Source: an uncultured Roseovarius sp.
GTDB lineage: Bacteria > Pseudomonadota > Alphaproteobacteria > Rhodobacterales > Rhodobacteraceae
Assembly (NCBI GenBank): GCA_951812895.1
Contig: OX638333.1
Location: 176,366 to 240,365, forward strand
DNA length: 64,000 bases
Direction of reading: 5' to 3'
Shown here piece after piece: positions 11,830-56,951 of the stretch (positions within the stretch are counted from its first letter, which is position 1; every line of letters begins with the position of its first letter). A program made the position numbers and the translations under genes. The notes below the pieces were generated by a model. That model saw nothing but the letters and a program-made list of their open reading frames with translations, was not told where the DNA came from and ran no database searches.

Positions 11830-13233
11830 ATGACCACCACAGACACCCCGCCAGAACTGCAATTCGGCTGGGAGGAATGGGTGGGCTTACCAGATCTCGG
11901 CGTCCCTGCCCTGCGGGCCAAGGTCGATACCGGCGCGCGCACTTCGGCATTGCATGCCTTCGACATTGAAACCTTCGGCGCCGCCTCCAAACCCAAGGTG
12001 CGTTTCACCGTTCACCCGATCCCGGGCCGCGATGACCTGATCATTCCTTGCTCTGCCGAAATCGTCGACCGGCGCGAGGTCACCTCGTCCAATGGCGACA
12101 AGGAAATGCGCTATGTCATTTCGTCGACCCTCGCGGTCAACGGGCAAAGCTGGCCGATAGAAATTACCCTGACCAATCGCGCCTCCATGACCTCACGCAT
12201 GTTGCTCGGACGTACAGCCCTGCGCGACCATATCTCGATCAACGCTACAGACCGCTTTTGCCAGCCGGAGCTGAATTACGACGTCTACCATCACACCAAA
12301 AAAATGCGCGAAGCTGCTCCAAAACGCGCACTGCGCATCTGTGTGCTGTCACGAGAGGATAATTATTCCACCCGTCGTTTAGTGGAAGAGGGTGAAAAAC
12401 GCGGCCATTCGGTCGAGGTGATAAACACCACCCGGTGCTACATGGCGCTCAACGCCCTGGCGCCAGAAGTGCACTACGATGGCAAACGCCTGCCCCGCTT
12501 TGACGCGGTGATCCCACGCATCGGCGCCTCTGTCACCGCCTATGGCGCGGCGATCATCCGGCAGTTTGAAACCATCGGCACTTTCTGCGTCAACGGCTCT
12601 GAAGGGTTGATTGCCAGCCGTGACAAACTGCACGCGCACCAGATCATGGCCCGCGCGCAGATCGGTATGCCCAACACTGCCTTTGCCGCCTCGCCACGCG
12701 ACACCGGCAATATCATCGGGTTGGTGGGCACCGCCCCCCTGATCGTCAAACTGCTGGAATCGACGCAAGGCAAAGGCGTGGTTCTCGCCGAAACACGCAA
12801 AGCTGCCGAATCGGTGATCGACGCCTTCCGCGGGCTCAAGGCCAACTTTCTGGTTCAGGATTTCGTCAAGGAAGCCGCAGGCGAAGATATCCGCTGCCTT
12901 GTTGTGGGGGGCAAGGTTGTGGCCTCAATGAAGCGCACCGGGGCTGAGGGTGATTTCCGCTCCAACCTGCACCGCGGAGGCAGCGCCAAGTCGATCCGCA
13001 TCACTAAGGTCGAGCGTGACACAGCAGTCCGCGCCGCCAAGGCGTTTGACCTCAATCTCGCAGGTGTCGATCTGCTGCGGTCAGAGGCGGGTCCGAAAGT
13101 GCTCGAGGTCAATTCCTCGCCCGGGTTGGAAGGGATTGAAAAATCGACCGGCAAAAATATCGCTGGTCTGCTCTACGACAACATTGAAACCCGTGTGCGC
13201 CCCGTCCCGATCCGCCGTCGCAAGAAATCGTAG
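11830..13233 (+). CDS. RimB-like retropepsin domain fused to RimK-type ATP-grasp ligase
   Basis: A 467-residue two-domain protein. Residues about 10-150 form the domain once called ATP-dependent zinc protease (PF05618), now known as RimB-like retropepsin, with the aspartic protease motif DTGA at 33-36 and a second block LLGRTAL. Residues about 165-455 are a RimK-type ATP-grasp ligase ([27 protein letters not shown]). RimK adds glutamates to the C-terminus of ribosomal protein S6; RimB is its protease partner in pseudomonads, where the two are separate genes. The fusion suggests that ligation and trimming act on the same substrate. It stands alone after a hairpin. The substrate here is inferred, not shown. 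Confidence 0.88.
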
Positions 13234-13260: not shown

Positions 13261-13283
13261 CTTCTTTCTTGCCCCAAATACCC
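13261..13283 (+). repeat. 23-base repeat, copy at 13.3 kb
   Basis: Begins CTTCTTTCTTGCC and ends CAAATACCC, 27 bases after the RimB-RimK stop. It matches 55405-55427 in 22 of 23 positions (one C/T change) and resembles the block at 9345-9367. All three sit a short distance downstream of a plus-strand gene. Confidence 0.75.
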
Positions 13284-13361: not shown

Positions 13362-13450
13362 GATTTGTGCGCATCATGTACACAAATTCCCGGCACACTC
13401 CCGATCTTTGTACAATTCACATGTACAATCCGTACGAATTGTACAATTTC
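13362..13450 (+). repeat. 89-base GTACAA-box element, copy A
   Basis: The block GATTTGTGCGCATCATGTA is followed by 21 less conserved bases, then CGATCTTTGTACAA and three further boxes. GTACAA or GTACGA begin at 13410, 13423, 13432 and 13441 (spacings 13, 9, 9). Copy B at 55462-55550 aligns without gaps and with identical spacings. Copy A lies upstream of the SufT-like gene, with TATAAT at 13473-13478 just after it, so here it could act as an operator array. It is unlike any alphaproteobacterial regulator site I know (Fur, Irr, RirA, FnrL, CtrA). Confidence 0.75.
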
Positions 13451-13517
13451 GCTGCCACTGGACGCGGCATTTTATAATCCCTATATGTTTGCTCAGGATA
13501 ACGTTCAGGATCACCCC

Positions 13518-13880
13518 ATGACCCACAACCCCGAACCACTCGAAGGTACACCGCTGATACCACCGTCAACCACCGATCATCCGCTCTATGATCAGGTTGT
13601 CGAGGCATGTCGTTCGGTCTACGATCCGGAAATTCCGGTGAACATCTATGATCTTGGCCTCATCTATACAATTGATATCAATGACGAAAATGACGTGAAT
13701 GTCACCATGACCCTTACTGCTCCGGGTTGCCCGGTGGCAGGTGAAATGCCCGGCTGGATCGCAGAGGCGATTGAGCCGATGGCCGGCGTCAAACAGGTTG
13801 ACGTTGAACTGGTCTGGGAACCACCCTGGGGTATGGACATGATGAGCGATGAAGCTCGTCTAGAACTTGGATTCATGTAG
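13518..13880 (+). CDS. SufT-like MIP18/DUF59 iron-sulfur assembly protein
   Basis: A 120-residue protein of the DUF59/MIP18 family involved in maturing iron-sulfur proteins. The family core is visible: SVYDPEIPVNIYDLGLIY (33-50) and the reactive cysteine C71 in TLTAPGCPVAGEMP. The length and the SufT-type ending (WEPPWGMDMMSDEARLELG) match Suf-system members rather than PaaD. The start at ATG 13518 has AGGAT upstream; a longer frame with an ATG at 13485 is possible. A TATAAT sequence at 13473 and the GTACAA array lie upstream. It is followed after 29 bases by a SufA/IscA protein, which supports the iron-sulfur role. Confidence 0.88.
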   Translation: MTHNPEPLEGTPLIPPSTTDHPLYDQVVEACRSVYDPEIPVNIYDLGLIYTIDINDENDVNVTMTLTAPGCPVAGEMPGWIAEAIEPMAGVKQVDVELVWEPPWGMDMMSDEARLELGFM

Positions 13881-13909: not shown

Positions 13910-14260
13910 ATGTTCGGGATTCCCGGAAAACAGGCCGTTTCGATGACCCCGGCCGCCGCATCTCAGATTGCGCGCCTGATGAAGAAAGACAACAGTCAGG
14001 GCCTGCGTATCGGCGTCAAAAAAGGCGGCTGTGCTGGCATGGAATACACGATGGAGTATGTGTCAGAGGTTGATCCACATGATGAAGTGGTTGAACAGGA
14101 TGGCGCGCGGGTGATGATTGCCCCGATGGCGCAGATGTTCCTGTTTGGAACGGAAATTGACTATCAGGTTTCCCTGCTCGAATCCGGGTTTCAGTTCAAC
14201 AACCCCAACGTGGTCGATGCCTGTGGCTGTGGTGAGTCCATCAAATTCGAAGGCATGTAG
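13910..14260 (+). CDS. SufA/IscA/HesB family iron-sulfur carrier
   Basis: A 116-residue A-type carrier that receives Fe-S clusters and hands them to target proteins. The three conserved cysteines are C41 (KKGGCAGMEY), C105 and C107 (DACGCGES). The N-terminal segment VSMTPAAASQIARLM is typical of the family. It follows the SufT-like gene in the same direction with a good Shine-Dalgarno (TTAGGAGAAA), so both are probably one operon. The sufBCDS genes are not in this window. Whether it is best called sufA or an IscA paralogue cannot be settled from sequence alone. Confidence 0.9.
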   Translation: MFGIPGKQAVSMTPAAASQIARLMKKDNSQGLRIGVKKGGCAGMEYTMEYVSEVDPHDEVVEQDGARVMIAPMAQMFLFGTEIDYQVSLLESGFQFNNPNVVDACGCGESIKFEGM

Positions 14261-54180: not shown

Positions 54181-55362
54181 ATGCAGATCAACACTCTCAT
54201 CCTCGGTGCCGGTGCCGCCGGCATGATGTGCGCGGCCCATGCGGGGCCGGACACGCTGATCATTGATCAGGCCAAAAAACCGGGCGAGAAAATCCGCATC
54301 TCCGGCGGCGGGCGCTGCAATTTCACCAACCTGCATTGCGGCCCGGACAATTTCCTGTCGGCCAATCCGCATTTCGCCCGTTCGGCGCTCGCCCGATATA
54401 CCCAGTGGGATTTTATCGATTTGGTCGCGTGCCACGACATCGCGTATCATGAAAAAACCCTGGGCCAGCTCTTCTGCGACGGCAAATCCGTTCAGATCAT
54501 CGATATGCTGCGTGCCGAAATGGCTGACGCGGGTGCCACCCTCTGGCTCTCCACCAGCCTCACCGACCTCTCTCATGACGGCACCCAATTCTCCGCCACG
54601 CTCGACCGCGACGGCATCCGCCACACGGTCACAGCCCGCAATCTCGTCCTCGCCACGGGGGGCAGATCGATCCCGGCCATGGGCGCCTCGGGCCTCGCCT
54701 ATGACATCGCCACCCGCTTTGGCCATAGCGTCACCGAAACCCGCCCTGCCCTTGTACCTCTCACATTCTCGGACAAACGGTTTGCCCCGCTTTCCGGCAC
54801 CTCCCTGCCGGTCCGCATCTCCAATGCCCGGACCAGCTTTGACGAGGCATTGCTTTTCACCCATCGTGGCCTGTCTGGTCCGGCGGTTCTGCAAATTTCT
54901 TCTTACTGGCGCGAAGGTGAAGAGATCACTATCAACCTCGCCCCTGATCTCCCGCTCTTCGACACGCTGCGCGACCAACGCCAGCTTCAGGGCCGGCACA
55001 ACCTGACCACCGAACTGGCCCGCCACCTGCCGGCAAAACTAATCCAGCATCTGACACCGGAACTGTCTCTCAAGGGTAACCTCGCCGATCAGTCCGATGT
55101 CTGTCTCTCCGACCTGACAAGCACCCTGCACAACTGGACCCTTAAACCCAACGGGTCCGAAGGGTACCGCACCGCCGAGGTCACCCTTGGCGGCATCGAC
55201 ACCTCAGGGCTTTCATCCAAAACCATGATGTCCAACACCGTGCCTGGTCTTTATGTGATAGGCGAGGCCGTCGATGTCACCGGTTGGCTTGGCGGATTTA
55301 ATTTCCAATGGGCCTGGTCATCCGGCCACGCCGCCGGTCAGGCGATCCGCGCCACCACCTGA
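54181..55362 (+). CDS. BaiN/RdsA-type NAD(P)/FAD-dependent oxidoreductase
   Basis: A 393-residue flavoprotein of the HI0933/YhiN family. The dinucleotide motif GAGAAG is at 9-14, followed by KIRISGGGRCNFTN (about 38-51), a second FAD contact ATGGRSIPAMGASG, and the C-terminal GGFNFQWAWSSGHAAG. The family includes enzymes acting on steroid or flavin-like substrates, but most members are of unknown function. It lies between ftsW and murD, an unusual place. The ATG follows AGGGGCAGCAC. A repeat element and the GTACAA array B follow. Confidence 0.9.
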   Translation: MQINTLILGAGAAGMMCAAHAGPDTLIIDQAKKPGEKIRISGGGRCNFTNLHCGPDNFLSANPHFARSALARYTQWDFIDLVACHDIAYHEKTLGQLFCDGKSVQIIDMLRAEMADAGATLWLSTSLTDLSHDGTQFSATLDRDGIRHTVTARNLVLATGGRSIPAMGASGLAYDIATRFGHSVTETRPALVPLTFSDKRFAPLSGTSLPVRISNARTSFDEALLFTHRGLSGPAVLQISSYWREGEEITINLAPDLPLFDTLRDQRQLQGRHNLTTELARHLPAKLIQHLTPELSLKGNLADQSDVCLSDLTSTLHNWTLKPNGSEGYRTAEVTLGGIDTSGLSSKTMMSNTVPGLYVIGEAVDVTGWLGGFNFQWAWSSGHAAGQAIRATT

Positions 55363-55404: not shown

Positions 55405-55427
55405 CTTCTTTCTTGCCTCAAATACCC
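55405..55427 (+). repeat. 23-base repeat, copy at 55.4 kb
   Basis: Begins CTTCTTTCTTGCC and ends CAAATACCC, 42 bases after the flavoprotein stop. It is 22/23 identical to 13261-13283 and stands in the same order relative to the GTACAA element that follows. Confidence 0.75.
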
Positions 55428-55461: not shown

Positions 55462-55550
55462 GATTTGTGTGCATCATGTATTCAAGTGTCTCAAACAGGG
55501 CCGATCTTTGTACAAATCACATGTACAAATTGTACAAGCTGTACAAATTC
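55462..55550 (+). repeat. 89-base GTACAA-box element, copy B
   Basis: The block GATTTGTGTGCATCATGTA is followed by 21 variable bases, then CGATCTTTGTACAA and GTACAA boxes starting at 55510, 55523, 55532 and 55541 (spacings 13, 9, 9, exactly as in copy A). It lies between the convergent flavoprotein (plus) and murD (minus) genes and abuts the murD stop codon. With no gene starting here, a simple promoter role is unlikely for this copy. Confidence 0.75.
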
Positions 55551-56951
55551 TCAGCCCAGTTCGGCCCGCACCCGCGCCGTAAAGTCATCGCCGCGCTGTT
55601 CAAAGTTATCATACTGATCAAAACTCGCGGCAGCAGGGGCCAGCAAAACCGTCTCACCCGACGCTGCGTCCGCAACCGCACGGTGCACTGCTTCTGCCAT
55701 CGTTGTGCACACTTCGGCTTCAACCCCCTCTAACTGCAGGGAAAAATTAGCCGCTTCACGCCCGATGACATAGGCTTTGACAACGTTGCCAAAACCGGGT
55801 TTCAAAGCCGACAACCCACCATCCTTTTCCAGACCGCCACAAACCCAACGGATTTTCCTAAAAGCTTTCAACGCCTTAAGCGCTGAATCCACATTTGTGG
55901 CCTTGCTGTCATTCACATAAGAAACACCATCTCGTTCAGCAATAATCTGGCTCCGGTGCGGCAATCCGGCAAAACTCCTGAACCCGTCTTCAACAGCCCT
56001 TGGTGCCAATCCCAACACCCGACACACCGCATAGGCAGCACAGGCATTCTGATGGTTGTGTTCCCCGGGTAAGCCTTTGATTTCTCTCAAATCTATCGAT
56101 CCAACCTGACGACCCTTGCGGTACTCACTCAGATACCCTTTGCGGGCAAAAACGGCCCAGCCCGGTCCGGTCAATTTCCCCTCAACTGACACCCGGATCA
56201 CCCGATCATCGCCAATCCCTTCGGACAATTGTCCGGCCAGAAACCGGCCCTCGGCCTCATCCACGCCAACCACAGCCCGGTCCGGGCCACCCTCGGCAAA
56301 CAACCTGCGTTTGGCCGCAAAATACCCGCCAAGACCCTCATGACGATCAAGATGGTCCGCAGAAAGATTAGTAAAAACAGCGACATCCGGGGTTAATGCC
56401 CGCGCCAGCTCGGTCTGGTAAGAGCTTAGCTCCAACACCACCACTGCGCCTTCTCCCGGGGGATCAATATCCAAAACACCCTTGCCAATGTTCCCGGCCA
56501 ACTGGCTGGATTTTCCAGCAGCTTCTAAAACATGGTGGATCAGCGCAGAAGTAGTTGATTTTCCATTGCTTCCCGTGACTGCCACCACCCGTGGTGCGGT
56601 TCCAAACCCATCCCAGTCCCCATTGGCGAAGGACCTGAAAAACAGCCCGATATCATTGTCTACCGGCACCCCGGCTTTCTCAGCCGCTGCAACAACCTTA
56701 TGTGGTTCCGGGTAAAGATGCGGAATGCCCGGCGATACGATCAGGCGCACAATGTCTTCAAAAGCGCGGTCTTTGTTTAGGTCTTTGACCTCAAAACCAT
56801 TTTCCGTTGCCATATCGCGCGTAGCCGGGTTGTCATCCCAGCAAACTGGCACCGCCCCTCCGGCCTCCAGCGCGCGCGCAGCGCTCAATCCTGATCGTCC
56901 CAATCCCAGCACCGCAACCCGCAGCCCGGCAAATCCGGAAACCGGGATCAC
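55551..56951 (-). CDS. murD: UDP-N-acetylmuramoylalanine--D-glutamate ligase
   Basis: A 466-residue Mur ligase adding D-Glu. The N-terminal [15 protein letters not shown], the ATP loop GSNGKSTT (127-134), [16 protein letters not shown] and the C-terminal [19 protein letters not shown] motifs are all present. It overlaps the upstream tautomerase-like gene by four bases. Its stop touches the GTACAA array B. Confidence 0.97.

Follow-up and report, generated by a model that had tools for sequence, protein, structure and literature searches.

Dispersed GTAC-box arrays with polar placement behind stop codons in Roseovarius: putative sites for a DNA-binding protein

The ordered GTACAA boxes upstream of a SufT-like gene (copy A) belong to a family of dispersed arrays that are inherited vertically. 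We tentatively favour the reading that these arrays are putative sites for a DNA-binding protein at the 3′ ends of transcripts, where they may have a boundary role. Copy A was found in a window of 64,000 nt, the whole stretch of DNA analysed, which is part of one contig of a genome of 4,544,618 bases (here G000, or the own genome).

Copy A carries four boxes on the + strand, GTACAA at 13410..13415 (box 1), 13423..13428 (box 2) and 13441..13446 (box 4) and GTACGA at 13432..13437 (box 3), with start spacings of 13, 9 and 9, just as a sequence-only reading of the window had described them. The gap-free counterpart 42.1 kb away that this reading had reported is equally real. Copy B (55462..55550, + strand; boxes at 55510, 55523, 55532 and 55541, with identical spacing) lies 42,100 bases from copy A and is identical to it at 68 of 89 bases without a gap, while the second-best match to copy A without gaps on this strand of the window reaches 40/89. 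A relaxed pattern of three boxes is found twice in the window and never in 100 dinucleotide shuffles. The poorly conserved inner stretch of 21 bases was also recovered: positions 13387–13407 of copy A are identical to copy B at 12 of 21 bases, compared to 21/25 and 35/43 on the two sides. A 19-base block said to precede the boxes is present but does not stand apart, being a part of the dyad ATTTGTGYGCATCATGYACACAAAT, which fits the register of two further boxes. In copy A this block 1 (13362..13387, +) forms the dyad GATTTGTGCGCATCATGTACACAAAT, whose register is that of two GTNC boxes set 9 bases apart, so that the unit has six box positions. Between it and box 1 are a variable spacer (13388..13399, +), which falls within the poorly conserved stretch, and the lead-in CCCGATCTTT (13400..13409, +).

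The surroundings of copy B are typical of the family. It ends at 55550, and the stop codon of a MurD-like Mur ligase gene (55551..56951, − strand) starts at 55551, the convergent left neighbour being an HI0933-like gene (54181..55362, +). Copy A is atypical since it precedes a start and has no nearby stop. It lies between two genes of the same strand, a RimK-like ATP-grasp gene (11830..13233, +) to the left and the SufT-like gene (PF01883; 13518..13880, +, with the ATG at 13518 chosen by us as the start) to the right, and a SufA-like gene (PF01521) occupies 13910..14260 (+).

As read from 20 own-genome copies and 38 chosen copies of several genomes, the unit is composed of a dyad of ~25 bp, a spacer, the lead-in, which across dialects reads CCCCGAT(C/T)TT, box 1, and then boxes 2, 3 and 4 at successive steps of +13, +9 and +9. 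The copies taken outside the own genome were 40 of 69 in G027, 20 of 36 in G004, 10 of 33 in G068, 5 of 23 in G010 and 5 of 18 in G019, together with 21 of 46 rows in G017 and 41 of 44 rows in G033, which form a close pair. Each examined genome has its own dialect, which its copies share. The dyad reads ATTTGTGTGCATCATGCACACAAAT in the own genome and ATTTGCGTCCATGATGGACGCAAAT in G027 and begins with TTTTCGTACGACTTGTACG in G068; the dyad columns of G068 and G010 read GTAC-N5-GTAC literally. The boxes of G019 are GTCC, GTAG, GTAC and CTAC, while in G017 and G033 box 3 is mostly GGAC and block 1 shows plainly only its right-hand box. In the G004 copies block 1 is unrecognisable. A MAFFT alignment of 28 chosen copies from five dialects spans 94 columns with zero gaps, the rows having been hand-picked from ungapped matches, with gapped copies (such as L063 and L084) and a G068 hairpin variant omitted; G004 copies were left out of this alignment and of the cross-dialect RNAalifold alignment, and L036 was dropped from one alignment because of its poor fit. 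By eye, box 1 in G068 (L183, L186, L189, L190) can sit in a GC-rich hairpin loop between two box pairs, for example CCCCGGA...TCCGGGG in L190.

In the 4.54 Mb genome the exact pattern of four boxes was found nine times and the same pattern read backwards not once. A model built from sequence only returned 54 rows in G000, or 52 places once two overlapping rows were removed, with scores from 84 bits down to 21 bits and a tail of weak copies. In a collection of species genomes, which may leave out records of the window's own genome, GTACAA at all four boxes was found in nine stretches, all from Roseovarius albus or Roseovarius sp. MMSF_3281. The own-dialect model matched 19 of 84 Roseovarius genomes and a multi-dialect model detected the family in 28 of the 84, of which 15 have from 15 to at least 50 matches and 13 have one to six. 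These per-genome counts are lower bounds, the best ~50 matches having been scored in the genus and the best 10 in the wider draw described below, and the model misses weak dialects: G009, G023 and G050 have gltD arrays recognisable by eye and 0–1 model matches. The spacing is kept in relatives, and the array is not confined to two places, contrary to the outcome that the sequence-only reading had named as speaking against it.

Among 394 genomes drawn from the family, with the best 10 candidates scored in each, three matched, namely the own genome together with G402 and G304, which belong to other genera. As judged by eye from four loci each, a conserved insert separates boxes 1 and 2 in G402, and in G304 the array lies within a longer unit bearing the palindrome TGTGCAAATTGCACA. 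This longer repeated unit (L229, L231, L234, L237) also contains GTTAAC and TTGAC, and its palindrome is similar to the own-genome block 1 (TGTGCA-N3-TGCACA). Viral contigs gave no exact match, and a search of open papers on this motif or on repeats dispersed in Roseobacter genomes gave no title pointing to it among the matches listed.

The arrays of G000 are extragenic, dispersed and palindromic, according to the model places and a crude gene call. Placement was counted for 50 of the 52 places, the partial ones near 2746492 and 3306190 being left out, with a simple gene rule that accepts open frames of at least 110 codons. In 35 of the 50 copies the box side has a stop codon facing it at no more than 40 nt, and in 10 the block-1 side does; among those within 200 nt the median distance to the stop is 6 nt on the box side and 59.5 nt on the block-1 side. 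The corresponding counts for the box side and the other side are 26/40 and 10/40 in G027, 10/20 and 3/20 in G004, 7/10 and 1/10 in G068, and 15/21 and 4/21 in G017. Between convergent genes, the box side is the nearer one in 24 of 26 pairs in G000 (p = 0.0012), 16 of 24 in G027 (p = 0.044), 5 of 7 in G004 (p = 0.11) and 14 of 16 in G017 (p = 0.008). Fifteen of the 50 own copies, copy A included, have no facing stop within 40 nt, and by our crude gene call three lie between divergent genes. In the top clusters of flanking genes, the genes next to the arrays look mostly like housekeeping genes, with one Lrp-type regulator; these clusters were inspected for a regulator next to its own array. No candidate for the binding protein was found.

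How the arrays are inherited could be followed in one species pair, G017 and G033. For each of the 21 G017 copies sampled, a counterpart occupies the corresponding place among 41 G033 loci, and the stretches that align are 86–94% identical. The box cores are identical at 410 of 420 positions (97.6%), the box flanks at 319/357 (89.4%), the filler at 72/84 (85.7%) and the spacer (model columns 27–43) at 268/357 (75.1%), with 1709/2121 (80.6%) for the left flank in this comparison; for cores against spacer, the Fisher p is 1.6e-22. The G017 copies were the best-scoring ones, a choice which may favour conserved boxes in G017 but not in G033. Block 1 as a whole (407/504) is conserved no better than the left flank (2554/3150). 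From the shared places and the contrast between cores and spacer we conclude that the family is not recently mobile in this pair and that selection acts on the boxes. Boxes that are conserved and keep a fixed spacing, with variable filler between them, make up the pattern expected of a protein-binding array.

Over larger distances, 13 G000 copies have a box-side flank in common with one of 40 G027 copies in the same orientation, and one more does so in flipped orientation. L062 of G000 and L150 of G027 occupy one intergenic region with the arrays in opposite orientation. Several genes carry the array in four to five genomes, G017 and G033 counted as two: gltD, murI, a methyltransferase, an Lrp-type regulator, lpxK, hisG and a CDP-alcohol phosphotransferase, all named from our reading of the sequence. 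In these flanking-gene clusters the G033 loci were taken without orientation, and the G004 copy at hisG is in reverse orientation.

The gltD 3′ end was inspected by eye in the best-scoring 30 of the 84 genomes. A GTAC-type array follows the stop codon in 16 of them, three of which have no more than one model match. Of the others, one shows a variant and five an unrelated array made up of CGTCGGTAT units; eight show none. This second kind of array is itself dispersed, with 18 pattern matches in G077, 12 in G036 and 23 in G083, some of them overlapping, and none in the backward control; a gene stop lies inside it or within 60 nt in 25 of 30 loci, some of the loci being one place. In the sister genomes G024, G036, G059, G077 and G083 (L327–L356), few or no GTAC arrays were detected, and a dispersed GGCTGTATCGCGTCGGTATCACGTCGGTATTGCGTCGGTGC array with an 11-bp period is often found close to stop codons, that of gltD among them. 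Genes common to both kinds of array are gltD and those at L333 and L338 (64–89% identity), with weaker sharing at L348 (48%) and at L336/L337 (26%, near chance by a rough estimate). G023 and G059 are close in the gltD tree and have wholly different 3′ arrays, that of G059 being like the array of a more distant clade. The contrast suggests that the gltD 3′ region may have been exchanged between lineages.

A trans-acting DNA-binding protein would best fit box cores conserved far above the spacer, a fixed spacing and dialects that are uniform across a genome. The array would then be a double-stranded DNA site for a putative dimeric or multimeric protein, whose specificity may drift and drag all the sites of one genome along. 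The polarity towards the stop codon suggests an action on the transcription of that gene or on what follows. With less assurance, we propose that the complex, bound where a transcription unit ends, could form a polar boundary, halting RNA polymerase or insulating it; intrinsic terminators looked rare in this genome. For copy A, the anchoring gene may have been lost or moved, or the array may have been co-opted before sufT. Intrinsic terminators give the boundary role no direct support, since they are equally rare at array-bearing ends (1/35) and at other ends (5/84). On whether the arrays replace intrinsic terminators the comparison has no power, such terminators being rare by our own finder. 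The protein-site reading as a whole is weakened by the missing candidate for the binding protein, by the fifteen own copies without a close facing stop, and by block 1, which is conserved no more than the flank in G017 and G033 and unrecognisable in G004. The boundary guess is further weakened by the unanchored copies, by signs of copying that we discuss below, and by the few copies (L049; L165, L171, L172; by eye) in which a terminator-like hairpin lies between the array and the next gene.

The same polar placement behind stop codons would also be expected if the array acted in the RNA, as the first ~90 nt of the 3′ UTR, with hairpins stabilising, processing or terminating the mRNA. We hold this to be possible but rather unlikely. 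On the gene-sense strand, RNAalifold predicted 12 pairs across dialects, five of them with a compensatory change (four in block 1 and one between boxes 4 and 2), and two single folds, copy A on the + strand (z = −4.15) and copy B in gene sense (z = −2.16), are better than those of shuffled sequences. However, compensatory changes do not separate RNA from DNA, because a DNA palindrome predicts them just as an RNA hairpin does; the consensus energy is small (−4.3 kcal/mol across dialects), and in the own dialect (element strand, −5.9) none of the 12 predicted pairs is compensated. The other two single folds gave z-scores of −1.18 and −0.49. Block 1 shows no gene-sense wobble excess, with GT 14 and AC 24 across dialects. 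On the element strand its GT:AC counts are 33:34 in G000 and 30:31 in G027 (42 and 41 rows, one row being a reverse-strand match), and in the few copies of G068, G010 and G019 they are 8:1, 3:3 and 1:1. Of the six other symmetry centres listed, four have more AC than GT mismatches on the element strand (e.g. 28:5 and 47:1), which is the direction of gene-sense wobble, although fixed consensus mismatches confound these counts. A terminator-like hairpin precedes the array in a few copies, and Rfam at gathering score matched a single element in the window, a tRNA, and none in the array. Of the two natures proposed from the sequence at the outset, a protein-binding array or a structured RNA, the former is backed by the fixed spacing, the conserved cores and the dialects, while the latter stays unproven, since the own dialect has no compensated pair and the five found across dialects are equally expected of a DNA dyad.

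The arrays might instead be an old non-autonomous mobile repeat of a REP/BIME- or MITE-like kind, which spread in ancestors, was kept at safe gene ends and is now mostly fixed, with occasional copying. Their dispersed, extragenic and palindromic nature, their tens of copies and the weak tail of model scores agree with this, as do several signs of copying. The G027 copies are homogeneous, two of them being 0.97 identical and some having common flanks; spacers are more alike than their composition predicts (mean 0.40 versus 0.26 in G000 and 0.45 versus 0.27 in G027); and the box 3–4 segment of G027, TTCGTAC-N5-GTACGAA, is found in both orientations. (The common flanking sequence of L142, L152 and L164 and of L133 and L136 in G027 extends over 260–370 bp, so that larger duplicated segments exist around these copies.) Against it stand the positional stability of all 21 sampled copies, box cores conserved far above the spacer, and the Y1_Tnp transposase family (PF01797), which is absent from seven of eight carriers including G000, with one match at cut-off in G004. 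No tie to an insertion sequence emerged either, in an analysis that involved no insertion-sequence library. We judge the mobile origin to be unlikely. That ~50 sites are spread over the chromosome, so few of them between divergent genes, would also suit a chromosome-scale site that helps to organise the nucleoid or to control division, as Noc, SlmA or MatP sites do, and is tolerated only at promoter-free gene ends. This is quite improbable, given that the sites are spaced nearly at random along the chromosome (CV 0.88 for 50 places) and that such a role needs no tight anchoring behind a stop; the arrays are oriented with the leading strand in 35 of 50 copies versus 203 of 340 genes, which is no clear signal of replication polarity beyond the gene bias (skew switches at ~2.0 Mb and ~3.8 Mb taken as origin and terminus). 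Lastly, the position of copy A upstream of a TATAAT at 13473 and of the suf genes, remarked on in the sequence-only reading, is correct and might indicate a promoter operator of these genes. The link is peculiar to copy A, which alone among 50 own-genome copies examined has a TATAAT within 60 nt after the array; arrays between divergent genes are rare and the other copies lie behind stops of unrelated genes, so that for the family as a whole the operator reading is contradicted and we regard it as extremely improbable.

The preferred reading, a protein-bound array behind stop codons, can be set beside known systems. Noc, SlmA and MatP recognise single short palindromes at tens of chromosomal sites with an ori/ter bias; the arrays are likewise tens of putative protein sites over the chromosome, but they are multi-box, tied to stop codons and without a strong ori/ter bias in our counts. 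MetJ met boxes are tandem palindromic half-sites in steps of ~8–9 bp located in promoters; the tandem steps are similar, whereas the arrays lie behind stops. REP, BIME and REPIN elements, as far as the cited accounts describe them, are dispersed extragenic palindromic repeats with species-specific classes, possible protein-binding roles and RAYT transposases (PMC2817692, PMC3116915). The arrays resemble them in being dispersed, extragenic and palindromic with genome-specific sequence classes, and differ from what is described there by their six positions at fixed asymmetric spacing, their fixed polarity toward the stop of one gene, their stable places in a close pair and the lack of Y1_Tnp in G000. 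An identity with RAYT-linked REPs was rejected on the last two grounds. The DNA uptake sequences of Neisseriaceae are presented in the source consulted as sites that occur throughout the genome, differ in dialect between lineages and have a reader protein (PMC3630211), and the arrays are likewise genome-wide with lineage dialects. The arrays are complex units of ~90 bp, in the tens, at 52 places and not at the hundreds or more that one short word would occupy, and their reader is putative only. Uptake sequences, in contrast, reach thousands of copies per genome. The array family thus appears to sit among dispersed extragenic binding-site families, with a REP-like dispersion and dialects like those of uptake sequences.

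A broader scheme, which we offer as speculative and rather doubtful, would be a protein-dependent transcription-boundary system of Roseovarius in which stop-adjacent arrays are read by a protein of changing specificity and the sites are rewritten in place in each lineage, as GTAC, as GTCC/GTAG and perhaps, behind gltD in a sister clade, as the unrelated 11-bp CGTCGGTAT unit. If it is true, a conserved family of sites at dozens of core-gene ends, with a putative reader and lineage dialects, would amount to a new layer of 3′-end or chromosome biology. The dialects make co-evolution of reader and site testable, and the on/off pattern across the 84 genomes offers a direct way to screen for the gene of the reader.

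In addition, a second dispersed motif, CTTCTTTCTTGCCNNAAATACCC, is found beside both copies in the window, at 13261–13283 and 55405–55427, where it stands 27 nt (copy A) and 42 nt (copy B) past the stop codon of the left-hand gene. The genome holds 37 copies of it with at most two mismatches, including several close inverted pairs, and none was found in the backward control. By comparison of coordinates, nine of the copies lie within 130 nt of a GTACAA array.
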